Origin: Candidatus Rokuibacteriota bacterium
GTDB lineage: Bacteria > Methylomirabilota > Methylomirabilia > Rokubacteriales > CSP1-6
NCBI GenBank assembly: GCA_003221615.1
Contig: QHSQ01000101.1
Coordinates: forward strand, 1-37,774
Direction: 5' to 3'
Length of the DNA: 37,774 nucleotides
The notes beneath the pieces were generated by a model. That model was not told the DNA's origin. It did not search any database and saw only the letters and a program-made list of their open reading frames with translations. This document shows positions 4,793 through 25,761 of the stretch, one piece after another. The position numbers and the translations under genes were made by a program. Position 1 is the first letter of the stretch. Each line of letters begins with the position of its first letter.

Positions 4793-4834
4793 CGCGCTGC
4801 AGGCTGTCGGGGCTTCTCCGCCGGCCGAGGCGCG
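4793..4834 (+). repeat. Palindromic leader element, copy A (short class), upstream of ahcY
   Basis: The core hairpin is 4802-4826 (25 nt; GGCTG...CGGCC outer arms, CGGGG/CTCCG inner arms, CTT loop). It is flanked by GCA and GA internal-loop bases and by an outer stem CGCGCT (4793-4798) / GGCGCG (4829-4834). Two pairs need G·U wobbles on the plus strand, the strand transcribed here. It ends 25 bases before the ahcY ATG, followed by an A-rich linker and GAAGGA. Same orientation as the downstream gene. Confidence 0.8.
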
Positions 4835-4859
4835 ACTACAAACGAAGGACGGGCATTCC

Positions 4860-6119
4860 ATGGTCGAGCACGACGTCAAGAATCTGTCGCTCGCCCCCGA
4901 GGGGCGACTCAAGATCGAATGGGCCGAGCAATCGATGCCGGTCCTCCGGCAGATCCGCGAGCGCTTCGCGCACGAGCAGCCCCTGAAGGGGATCCGGCTC
5001 GGCGCGTGTCTGCACGTGACCACCGAGACCGCGGTCCTGATGCTCACGCTCAAGGCGGGCGGGGCCCAGCTGGCCCTCTGCGCCTCCAATCCGCTCTCCA
5101 CGCAGGACGACACGGCCGCGGCGCTCGTGCGCGAGTACGAAATCCCGGTCTTCGCTCACAAGGGTGAGGACAACGATCGGTACTACCGGCACATCGCCTC
5201 GGTGCTGGCGACAAGGCCTCAAGTCACGATGGACGACGGCGCCGACCTCATCTCGCAGATCCACGGCGCGCGCAAGGATCTGGCCGGTGACGTGATCGGG
5301 GGCACGGAGGAGACGACCACGGGCGTCGTGCGGCTCCGCTCGATGGAGCGTGAGGGCGTGCTCGCGTTTCCCGTCATCGCCGTCAACGACGCCGACACCA
5401 AGCACCTGTTCGACAACCGCTACGGGACCGGCCAGTCGACGATCGACGGCATCCTGCGCGCCACGAACATCCTCCTGGCCGGGCGGACCGTCGTGGTCGC
5501 GGGCTACGGGATGTGCGGCCGCGGCGTCGCGGCGCGCGCCAAGGGTCTCGGCGCCCACGTCATCGTGACCGAGGTCGAGCCGATGCGCGCGCTCGAGGCG
5601 GTGATGGACGGCTTCCCGGTGATGCCGATGACCAAGGCGGCCGCGCAGGGCGACCTGTTCGTGACGGTGACCGGCAACACGTCGGTCATGTCGAGCGACC
5701 ACTTCGGTCAGCTCAAGGACGGCGCCATCCTGTGCAACTCCGGCCACTTCAACGTCGAGATCGACCTCGAGACGCTCGGCGCGATGGCGCGCGCCCGGCG
5801 CGCCGTGCGCCCGTTCGTCGAGGAGTTCGTGCTCGACGGCGGCCGGCGCGTCTACGTCCTTGGCGAAGGGCGACTGATCAATCTGACCGCGGCCGAGGGT
5901 CACCCGGCCTCGGTCATGGACATGAGCTTCGCCAACCAGGCCCTCTCGGCCGAATACATGGTCAAGCACGGCCGGACCCTGGCGCGGAAGGTGTTCGTGG
6001 TGCCGCGCGAGATCGATCTCGAGATCGCCCGGCTCAAGCTCGGCTCGATGGGCGTGATGATCGACGAGCTCACGAGCGCCCAGCGCGAATACCTCGCCTC
6101 CTGGACCCACGGCACCTGA
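4860..6119 (+). CDS. ahcY: Adenosylhomocysteinase (S-adenosylhomocysteine hydrolase)
   Basis: A 419-residue protein of the shorter prokaryotic SAHH type. Visible signatures are the substrate HVTTET (52-57), MDDGADL (124-130), ETTTGV (151-156), the Lys181/Asp185 region and the NAD-binding GYGMCGRG (215-222). It hydrolyses S-adenosylhomocysteine to homocysteine and adenosine, using bound NAD. The position of the mammalian active-site Cys195 region reads YGTGQS, as in archaeal and Thermotoga-like members. The ATG at 4860 is preferred over upstream in-frame starts because those run through the repeat element; GAAGGA lies about 8 bases upstream. Partner of metK. Confidence 0.97.
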
Positions 6120-6138
6120 TCGGGGCGCGCCGAGGCCT

Positions 6139-24929: not shown

Positions 24930-25710
24930 CACCCCGGGCGTCGTCGTCCGCCTCGACACCGTCGACTCGACCCAGTCTGTGGCCTTCGCGCTTGCCGAGC
25001 GCGGCGCCGCTGACCGGACGGTGGTCGTGGCCGACCAGCAGCTGGAGGGCCGAGGCCGACGGGGGCGGACCTGGCGTGCGCCGGCCGGGACGAGCCTGCT
25101 GGCCTCGATCATCGTTCGGCCGCGGCTTCCGCAGGCGCTCCTGGCCACGCTGTCCCTCGCGACCGCCGTCGCCACTGCCGAAGCGCTGCGGCGCGTCGCT
25201 CGCGTCGAGACCAAGCTCAAGTGGCCGAACGACGTGCTCGTCGGGGGCAGGAAGATCGCGGGAATCCTCCTCGAGTCTCGGACGGCAGCACGAGCCGAGA
25301 CGAGCAGCTCGGTTACGGCCGGGATCCCGCCGCTCGTCACGATCATCGGCATCGGCATCAATCTCGGTCAGCGCGAGTTCTCGCCCGATCTGGCGGACAG
25401 CGCCACCTCGGTCGCCCTCGAGACGGGCCATGCGCCGAGCCGTGAGTCGCTGCTCACGGCGCTGCTGGAAGAGTTCGATACCTGGCGCGCGCGCCTCGAG
25501 GGCGAAGGATTCGGCCCGATTCGCGAAGGATGGCGGCGGCTCAGCGACACTCTCGGGCGGCGAGTCACGGTCGACGCCGTGACCGGCGTCGCGGCCGATC
25601 TCGACACGGACGGCGCGCTTCTCATCGACGTGGGCGGCTCGCTCACGCGCGTGCTCGCCGGAGCGGTGAGCTCGGGCGACACCGCGGTCGGCTCGCCGGT
25701 GCCGCCCTAG
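24913..25710 (+). CDS. birA: Biotin-[acetyl-CoA-carboxylase] ligase, class I (no HTH domain)
   Basis: A 265-residue protein. The adenylate-forming loop GRGRRGR (46-52) and KWPNDV (103-108) are intact, as is the GIGINLG segment. A small C-terminal SH3-like domain follows (from about 215). There is no N-terminal winged helix, so it ligates biotin but should not repress biotin genes. The substrate is the biotin carboxyl carrier protein of acetyl-CoA carboxylase; accA lies 7 kb downstream on the same strand. It starts inside the end of valS (17-bp overlap). The following coaX is a frequent neighbour and in some bacteria a fusion partner. Confidence 0.94.
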   Translation: MTVGGSTPGVVVRLDTVDSTQSVAFALAERGAADRTVVVADQQLEGRGRRGRTWRAPAGTSLLASIIVRPRLPQALLATLSLATAVATAEALRRVARVETKLKWPNDVLVGGRKIAGILLESRTAARAETSSSVTAGIPPLVTIIGIGINLGQREFSPDLADSATSVALETGHAPSRESLLTALLEEFDTWRARLEGEGFGPIREGWRRLSDTLGRRVTVDAVTGVAADLDTDGALLIDVGGSLTRVLAGAVSSGDTAVGSPVPP

Positions 25711-25719
25711 GCGGCGGTG

Positions 25720-25761
25720 CGCGCGGCAGGCCGCCGGGGCTCGCCCGCCGGCCGAGGCGCT
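25720..25761 (+). repeat. Palindromic leader element, copy E (short class), upstream of coaX
   Basis: The core is 25729-25753, with paired GGCCG/CGGCC and CGGG/CCCG arms and mismatches at two positions. The outer stem keeps about four pairs. It ends 24 bases before the coaX ATG, followed by CAAATCAACAAGGAG with the Shine-Dalgarno. Same orientation as the gene. Confidence 0.8.

Follow-up and report, generated by a model that had tools for sequence, protein, structure and literature searches.

The window analysed here, a 37,774-nt stretch covering positions 1 to 37,774 of contig QHSQ01000101.1 (assembly GCA_003221615.1, Candidatus Rokuibacteriota bacterium), carries seven copies of a palindromic element of about 58 nt, distributed over five loci upstream of genes. 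With a probability of roughly 0.65, we read this element as a mobile family of the repetitive extragenic palindromic (REP) type that has multiplied in the Rokubacteriales, is moved by unrecognised machinery and is retained by directional, probably RNA-level, selection 5' of ribosome-binding sites. Copies are numerous, sites filled in one species are empty in another, no target-site duplication (TSD) is detectable, close pairs stand head-to-tail, and the 3' face of the element lies near start codons. Directional selection acting on copies once inserted is the simplest account of the non-random position and orientation, and the element may also have a positive function.

The host assembly (7.24 Mb in 596 contigs, 96.5% complete, 8.55% contaminated) was searched with a covariance model, R2, built from an alignment (A2) of 25 copies, six of them from the window. 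At E <= 1 this gave at least 138 matches among the best 150 candidates scored; as at most 150 (or 57) candidates were scored per genome, match counts per genome may be lower bounds. Joining matches on the same strand and at most 90 nt apart led to 117 clusters, namely 101 single, 11 double and 5 triple. The window copies themselves reached E-values of 2.9e-15 to 5.5e-6, calculated for the whole 7.24-Mb genome and partly a matter of construction, six of the seven having been used to build the model. A further model, R1, was dropped because of its poor automatic structure, and alignment A1 because of rows with wrong orientation or extent. The bare 13-mer was a poor tool, yielding 145+168 matches with one mismatch versus 118+104 for the reversed pattern.

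The nine genomes of the genus hold from 25 to at least 150 matches each. Throughout the class, the element was detected at E <= 1e-4 in 40 of 95 genomes. All 40 belong to the host's order, for which 60 genomes were searched (39 of the 40 fall in one family and one in another), the order-wide search having been run with stricter filters, while the covariance search found the element in none of the 35 class members outside the order. A pattern scan of named genomes returned at least 97 stretches, and the 80 listed were all titled Candidatus Rokubacteria or Rokuibacteriota. Those 80 served as a second sample, the remaining 17 not being included. Their 119 model matches became 95 clusters after exclusion of two partial matches and merging of tandems and duplicates. 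The combined set thus comprises 212 clusters, in which host and named loci may share orthologous copies.

Each unit combines the tag GYNG-T with a GC-rich hairpin that carries a bulge (GCGCGC / GGCCG / GCGGGGC with their complements) and with the tail CTATNAA. Read in the orientation commonest before genes, the order is G-Y-N-G-T, GCGCGC, YGCA, GGCCG, a UC bulge, GCGGGGC and a UGGG loop, followed on the 3' arm by GCCCCGC, CGGCC, GAG and GCGCGS and then by CTATNAA. By reading, the UC bulge is a conserved irregularity of the hairpin. Within the tag, the G at -5 is present in 171 and the G at -2 in 164 of 179 single copies; GNNG is found in 107 of the 117 host and 83 of the 95 other clusters, GYRG in 63 and 48. 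Beyond the element ends no clear conservation could be seen except A/G-rich sequence on the 3' side, as Shine-Dalgarno (SD) sequences would give. All 43 close pairs (up to 200 nt) are head-to-tail with start-to-start distances of 60-75 nt, and none is inverted. The same 60-75 nt period characterises head-to-tail tandem arrays of two to four similar copies, which occur in the window (15716-15902) and at loci L084, L108, L129 and L131. In the window array the linker is repeated together with the element. The mechanism that makes the arrays may be the one that spreads the element.

Genes were called with a purpose-written codon-usage finder, which is blind to RNA genes and makes some start errors (e.g. 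starts called at 2-10 nt). Of the 212 clusters, 24 were dropped, 21 of them for lying inside a gene call (some being caller errors) and the rest for lying at edges, so that 188 were classifiable. In the host, 52 clusters lie in co-directional gaps with their 3' face to the gene, 22 are reversed, 25 are divergent, 6 convergent, 11 in a gene call and 1 at an edge; in the case of the named loci the corresponding numbers are 49, 11, 18, 5, 10 and 2. For both sets together, forward copies, with the 3' face to the downstream gene, exceed reversed ones in co-directional gaps by 101 to 33 (p = 3e-9), and among the 43 clusters in divergent gaps 32 have their 3' face nearer a start than their 5' face (p = 0.002). 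Convergent gaps contain 11 of the 188. At host loci, elements occupy 25 of 66 divergent and 6 of 60 convergent gaps (Fisher p = 0.0003), frequencies drawn from loci selected for holding an element; per kb of intergenic DNA (3.98 co-directional, 2.47 divergent, 1.22 convergent) the difference between divergent and convergent gaps is smaller than by gap count.

The first-pass annotation, made from the window letters alone, had held the placement just 5' of the SD to be non-random, had proposed a covariance-model search and had named a lack of positional bias, or equal numbers at 3' ends and in convergent gaps, as results that would speak against it. The directional bias holds in the host (138 matches, 117 clusters) and in the 95 clusters from the 80 named loci, and convergent gaps take 6 of the 105 classifiable host clusters versus 25 for divergent ones. 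The word 'always', used there for the position 5' of a start, is correct within the window and too strong beyond it, given 21 of 212 clusters in gene calls, 11 in convergent gaps and 85 of 212 (60 co-directional and 25 divergent) with the 3' face 16-28 nt from a start.

At the preferred spot, roughly 18-26 nt separate the 3' face from the start codon, with a median of 22 nt for forward co-directional copies of both sets. As these copies also lie near the upstream stop (median 9 nt at named loci, 10 nt in the host), the argument for start anchoring is carried by the divergent gaps. There, the 3' face falls at 16-28 nt in 15 of 25 host clusters (2.9 expected) and in 10 of 18 others (2.0 expected), where the expectation assumes uniform placement within the same gaps and none of 20,000 permutations reached the observed values. 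The 5' face is found at this distance in 4 of 25 and 1 of 18, which is chance level. Restricting both copies and random positions to at least 14 nt from starts left 25 of 40 divergent copies at 16-28 nt against 7.0 expected, and 60 of 87 forward co-directional copies against 41.8. In roomy gaps the numbers are 22 of 39 (about 3.9 expected) for divergent and 14 of 33 (about 4.7 expected) for co-directional copies. For reversed co-directional copies, anchoring by the 5' face is not clear (9 of 27 at 16-28 nt versus 5.8 expected, p = 0.09); several of them directly adjoin an SD, as judged by reading. Short gaps account for a good part of the co-directional signal and for little of the divergent one. 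An artefact of gap length is ruled out by the within-gap permutation, also when positions closer than 14 nt to starts are excluded.

The window is syntenic in eight congeners, with 81-93% DNA identity. In the ahcY gap, compared in seven relatives with G006 excluded, the site of copy 1 is empty in all seven; G002 has a copy elsewhere in the gap and the other six have none. The element in the Rieske gap belongs to the host only, all six relatives compared being without it and having gaps of 2-50 nt, which in two of them hold little beyond the stop codon and the SD. The solute-binding gap contains three copies in the host, one in G006 and an apparent remnant in G005, and measures 1-4 nt in G007, G002 and G003. 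In the panE gap a reversed copy stands at the same site in host and G006, and G005, G007 and G002 are without it. In the coaX gap, among eight relatives, G002 has a copy, G005 an apparent remnant and six have none. Further copies are present in relatives only: one gap has two in G003, and a different gap has two in G005 and a single one in G006. Because presence differs between congeners in this way, the element behaves as a mobile repeat and not as a fixed leader.

Over 55 orthologous element gaps, all known orthologues were filled in 29, none in 15, and 11 were mixed, a tally biased towards filled loci, as most fetched loci had been selected for holding an element. When filled and empty sites are aligned, a clean insertion is seen in the best cases, and 179 single copies gave no clear TSD signal at any offset tested. 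Single-strand transposition is not known to leave a TSD. Decayed-looking copies were noticed in the solute-binding and coaX gaps of G005 (L167) and on comparing the host locus L263 with L123, a named Rokubacteria contig (orthologous genes at 95 and 89% protein identity). They keep the 3' end, around GAGGCGCG-CTNTA, and have lost the hairpin; the sequences suggest a deletion between the hairpin arms.

We also looked at the place of the element in the transcript. In the 80 nt upstream of SD-facing divergent copies the mean -35/-10 score was 6.44 versus 4.74 in shuffles (n = 25, p = 1e-5), in gaps that are expected to contain promoters anyway. SD-facing co-directional copies more than 40 nt from a stop also exceeded shuffles (6.08 versus 4.37, n = 13, p = 0.003). 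The excess was intermediate for divergent copies away from an SD (5.22 versus 4.39; n = 18, p = 0.08), and copies in tight operons showed none (4.56 versus 4.49, n = 43). From these scores, the most likely place of the element is the leader or the junction of stop and SD, where it would be transcribed. SD-like 4-mers follow the tail in 46 of 57 and 42 of 49 facing copies versus 13 of 49 and 9 of 36 non-facing ones, the background being about a quarter by a rough composition estimate. In the host, the tail is better conserved in SD-facing than in non-facing copies (3.89 versus 3.29 of 6 positions, p = 0.02), and in the other genomes it is equally conserved (4.16 versus 4.08, p = 0.97). Concerning termination, none of the four terminator-like sites in 4500-19500, a region with six of the seven copies, coincides with an element copy, and by reading no U-run follows the hairpin in either orientation. 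An Rfam cmscan of the window at gathering thresholds gave no matches.

The native element gave a lower predicted opening energy of the initiation region (-18..+12) in 48 of 73 copies when compared with its deletion, in 54 of 73 against an inverted and in 61 of 73 against a shuffled version. This effect was significant; in that test the opened region takes in at most nine bases of the element, and typically about three. When element bases were excluded, inversion alone remained clear (42 of 70, p = 0.004); scrambling the hairpin gave 43 of 70 (p = 0.06), and replacing the tail 29 of 70 in the opposite direction (p = 0.18).

Several results weigh against, or qualify, a REP-type family retained by directional selection. 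Regarding mobility, PF01797 (Y1_Tnp) was found in none of the nine genus genomes, in a search whose control was positive in 5 of 14 known genomes, and within the order it is unassociated with the element: of the 11 genomes out of 60 that have it, 6 are among the 40 with the element and 5 among the 20 without. Inspection by eye of the genes called between 20 element pairs, spaced 250-4000 nt apart, showed no transposase; no family search was run on these genes. The exact tag GTAG is present in just 18 of 117 host and 12 of 95 other clusters. Regarding the RNA, a maintained palindrome is favoured by an 18-pair structure over 117 distinct named-locus copies, which has 94% standard pair cells, with 19 double-change cells versus 5.0 in shuffles and double changes in 7 pairs; the alignment, however, was fitted to the structure, a control slid by +3 came near with 7 pairs and 15 cells, and RNAalifold alone returned different, weak structures. 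Folded as single strands, the copies at 11262 and 15722 (z -3.95 and -2.88 on the mRNA strand) are clearly more stable than shuffles, whereas those at 4793 (z -0.21) and 25720 (z +0.85) are little or no better; the copy at 18726, with z -1.95 on the + strand and -0.16 on the panE mRNA strand, is not clearly better either. With element bases excluded, deletion raises the opening energy by a median of 0.59 kcal/mol (40 of 70, p = 0.16). Regarding selection, most clusters (127 of 212) lack a 3' face at this distance of 16-28 nt from a start. If selection acted over time, the SD-facing share should follow copy divergence; it shows no such trend, being 45, 37, 22 and 50% from the highest to the lowest score class (13 of 29, 13 of 35, 5 of 23 and 15 of 30 at 16-28 nt).

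Some candidate identities could be set aside. A partner of the REP-associated tyrosine transposase (RAYT) or Y1 type was rejected, as PF01797, sought in the host's own, genus and order genomes, is missing from the genus and shows no association in the order. A longer autonomous element is disfavoured, the genes between the 20 nearby pairs being ordinary metabolic, transport or hypothetical ones by eye and two pairs having no gene call between them. In the case of a miniature inverted-repeat transposable element of a DDE transposon, there is no clear TSD and the ends GGYNGT and CTATNAA are not mutually inverted; no insertion-sequence library was searched. A promoter in the tail, with CTATNAA as -10 box, was rejected by reasoning alone, since it would stand too near the start and the hairpin offers no -35.

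With respect to known repeats, the first-pass annotation knew of no described element with this structure. On this point we disagree, as the anatomy is that of REP elements, going by parts of two publications (PMC3733652, PMC8266576). GTAG REPs are characterised in the former as small, high-copy and mostly intergenic palindromes that are tagged at one end and lie near the 3' end of the open reading frame (ORF) upstream of them. The tag is degenerate at positions 2-3 in some families (GYRG is listed) and sometimes provides a TAG stop; the distance to the downstream ORF varies, and convergent gaps are frequent (PMC3733652). The Rokubacteria element resembles them in copy number, intergenic position, a hairpin with an irregularity, closeness to the upstream stop and a stop sometimes supplied by the tag; its mostly GNNG tag, seldom GTAG exactly, may correspond to theirs. 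It differs in its length of about 58 nt compared with 20-40 nt, and in being start-anchored, with divergent gaps well used and convergent gaps poor, a contrast in placement that rests on the published description of the known REPs.

REPs moved by TnpA-REP (RAYT) carry a tag 5' of a hairpin with conserved irregularities and a CT beside the hairpin as the cleavage site, according to part of PMC8266576. Our element shares the tag 5' of an irregular hairpin, the CT dinucleotide beside it and the lack of a visible TSD; unlike RAYT-associated REPs, it occurs in a genus in whose nine genomes no PF01797 was found, and without association in the order. The head-to-head and tail-to-tail dimers of REPs and bacterial interspersed mosaic elements (BIMEs) are likewise not reproduced, close pairs here being head-to-tail only. 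ERIC, RUP, YPAL, Correia/NEMIS and CIR are described in excerpts of PMC2229807 as non-autonomous, repeated and largely intergenic mobile palindromes, and ERIC as altering mRNA stability in an orientation-dependent manner. Non-autonomy, repetition and largely intergenic position are common to our element, and the length of 107-168 bp given there for RUP, Correia and YPAL sets these three apart, in a comparison made by description only. No paper combining 'Rokubacteria' and 'repetitive extragenic palindromic' was found in the library searched, nor any title or abstract opening there on a start-anchored REP. Altogether, the element is REP-like by anatomy and is not classed as a RAYT-associated REP. 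It departs from REP elements in four ways: SD anchoring, exclusively head-to-tail pairs, no Y1 transposase found in the genus, and a range within the class of a single order.

Other explanations have to be weighed against this one. Insertion itself could be targeted, if an enzyme or a nucleic-acid intermediate prefers the site just 5' of an SD in a fixed orientation, and selection would then be unneeded. Anchoring that is sharp, directional and about equal in the least and most diverged copies (13 of 29 versus 15 of 30) fits this, as does the Rieske copy, flanked by TGA and GGAGG at a place where the gap measures 11-12 nt in two relatives. Yet SD-like 4-mers are few beside copies not facing starts (13 of 49 and 9 of 36), which rules out GGAGG as a required target, and no target is conserved beyond the element ends, so that we consider targeting unlikely. 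A dedicated translation or mRNA-stability module, kept gene by gene since the hairpin with its A/U-rich tail raises or stabilises expression, comes close to the general device put forward in the first-pass annotation. The directional placement agrees with that proposal, with an orientation bias of 101:33 and anchoring also in roomy gaps; so do the lower opening energies with the native element, the 29 of 55 orthologous gaps that are all filled (in a sample biased to filled loci) and the slightly better kept tail in SD-facing host copies. What speaks against it is that presence is not conserved at the five window loci, that copies in G005 look decayed, that the tail is kept equally well in non-facing copies of other genomes, and that relief of the initiation region mostly vanishes with the element bases left out, remaining clear against inversion only. 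We therefore regard such a module as improbable.

The element could instead act upstream as classic REPs do, by 3'-end protection, attenuation or stalling near the stop, with start proximity as a by-product of short operon gaps. Forward co-directional copies indeed follow the upstream stop at a median of 9-10 nt, among 112 upstream ORFs that read towards the element 12 have their stop within its tag or foot, as PMC3733652 relates for GTAG REPs, and short gaps explain 41.8 of the 60 co-directional copies at 16-28 nt. PMC5082802 cites work on E. coli according to which ribosomes stall at REPs that lie within 15 nt of a stop codon; by analogy, this could apply to many co-directional copies. However, anchoring is strongest in divergent gaps (25 of 40 versus 7.0), which have no upstream gene to terminate, a co-directional excess remains after gap length is allowed for (60 of 87 versus 41.8), copies in convergent gaps are few and the U-run is missing; an upstream role as the whole explanation is quite improbable. 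We think it very improbable that the palindrome is a DNA site, e.g. for gyrase, a nucleoid protein or a regulator, because start spacing and orientation bias are hard to explain for a site downstream of promoter-like sequence. Gyrase and IHF are among the proteins that bind BIMEs. In favour of a DNA site are the long, conserved and interrupted palindrome and the binding of BIMEs by several proteins reported in the part of PMC2817692 consulted.

Returning to the REP-type family retained by selection, we propose that copies may have moved as single-stranded or hairpin DNA, by an enzyme that would be no recognisable Y1 transposase of the genus. They would persist mainly where they are harmless or mildly useful, that is between stop and SD in operons or between promoter and SD in leaders, their A/T-rich tail pointing to the ribosome-binding site. 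In these places transcription would yield a stable hairpin ending just before the SD. Such a hairpin may block 3'-5' decay of the upstream cistron, may stop upstream sequence from pairing with the initiation region, and may loosen translational coupling. A bolder and rather doubtful extension is a portable 5' leader, whose insertions would place a standard hairpin and A/U-rich tail before an existing SD and so re-tune translation and operon coupling of unrelated genes; a novel spreading mechanism would leave close copies head-to-tail only, and orientation would be set by the effect on the initiation region. REP-type repeats are known chiefly from 3' ends and as DNA moved by RAYT, whereas here the repeat is directional, start-anchored and head-to-tail, with no recognisable Y1 in the copy-richest genus. 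This raises two testable questions, namely what moves the element and whether a mobile hairpin can rewire translation initiation genome-wide. Of practical use are the congeners, in which one and the same gene occurs naturally with a filled, an empty or an apparently decayed site.

In the window, all seven copies described in the first-pass annotation are present, and its gene identities are upheld by Pfam. Copy 1 (4786..4841, + strand, R2 covariance score 56.0 bits), a short-loop variant, lies 5' of ahcY for S-adenosylhomocysteine hydrolase (4860..6119, +, AdoHcyase) with its 3' face 24 nt from the start. Copy 2 (11256..11316, -, 80.7 bits) lies 5' of the gene for a LigXa-like Rieske oxygenase (9928..11235, -, Rieske and LigXa_C), between the upstream stop codon and GGAGG. 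Copies 3 (15716..15776, -, 80.7 bits), 4 (15779..15839, -, 83.0 bits) and 5 (15842..15902, -, 83.0 bits) form a tandem of three with a 63-nt period, copy 3 being closest to the gene of a family 5 ABC solute-binding protein (14114..15703, -, SBP_bac_5). Copy 6 (18719..18774, +, 52.4 bits), with a short loop, is reversed with respect to the panE-like ketopantoate reductase gene (17666..18694, -, ApbA and ApbA_C) and stands between a promoter-like site and the SD. Copy 7 (25713..25768, +, 43.6 bits), again a short-loop variant, lies 5' of coaX for type III pantothenate kinase (25786..26568, +, Pan_kinase), 3' face 23 nt from the start.

With our own gene calls, the distances from hairpin edge to start codon at the five loci are 24, 26, 18, 30 and 23 nt, within 1 nt of the 25, 26, 18, 31 and 24 nt given before. 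The 3' face is directed to the gene at four of the five loci, as had been noted, the panE copy being the reversed one, and the five downstream genes are unrelated, which makes a metabolite switch unlikely, also in agreement. The promoter-like site, TTGACA-17-CATCAT (18789..18817, -), lies 15 nt upstream of copy 6 and matches the consensus at 10 of 12 positions, one such site being seen versus 0.7 expected by chance in the scanned region. The same hexamers are readable in the panE gap of G006, with element, and of G005, without it; in G007 and G002 TTGACA-17-CATGAT can be read.

Some minor observations complete the picture. In the gap 3' of the solute-binding gene, a terminator-like 13-pair hairpin with T-rich tail is found at 14043-14071 (-), such sites numbering 4 versus 3.7 expected. 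The gap from the panE-like gene to LptF/LptG contains in G002 (L174, G002:C29) a seemingly different GC-rich tandem repeat, with units around GGGCCCGGTTGTGCGCGCGCGCCCGCGTTGGGGGGTCTGG, and measures 1039 nt there and 81-288 nt in other genomes compared. A subfamily with GCGAGC arms, which keeps mismatches on both sides, accounts for 21 of the 212 clusters by the rule applied here (e.g. L119:2257-2317, L139:4442-4567 and G000:C155:22685). In small numbers, it seems less start-anchored, with 5 of 16 as against 77 of 123 at 16-28 nt, and an upstream stop seems to lie at most 3 nt from its foot more often (5 of 14 versus 16 of 92). In three genomes, copies lie just past the 3' end of a tRNA-Pro(ggg) gene (L076:1309-1369, L105:1936-1996 and L203, G000:C98:2571-2631); these were classed by their flanking ORFs.

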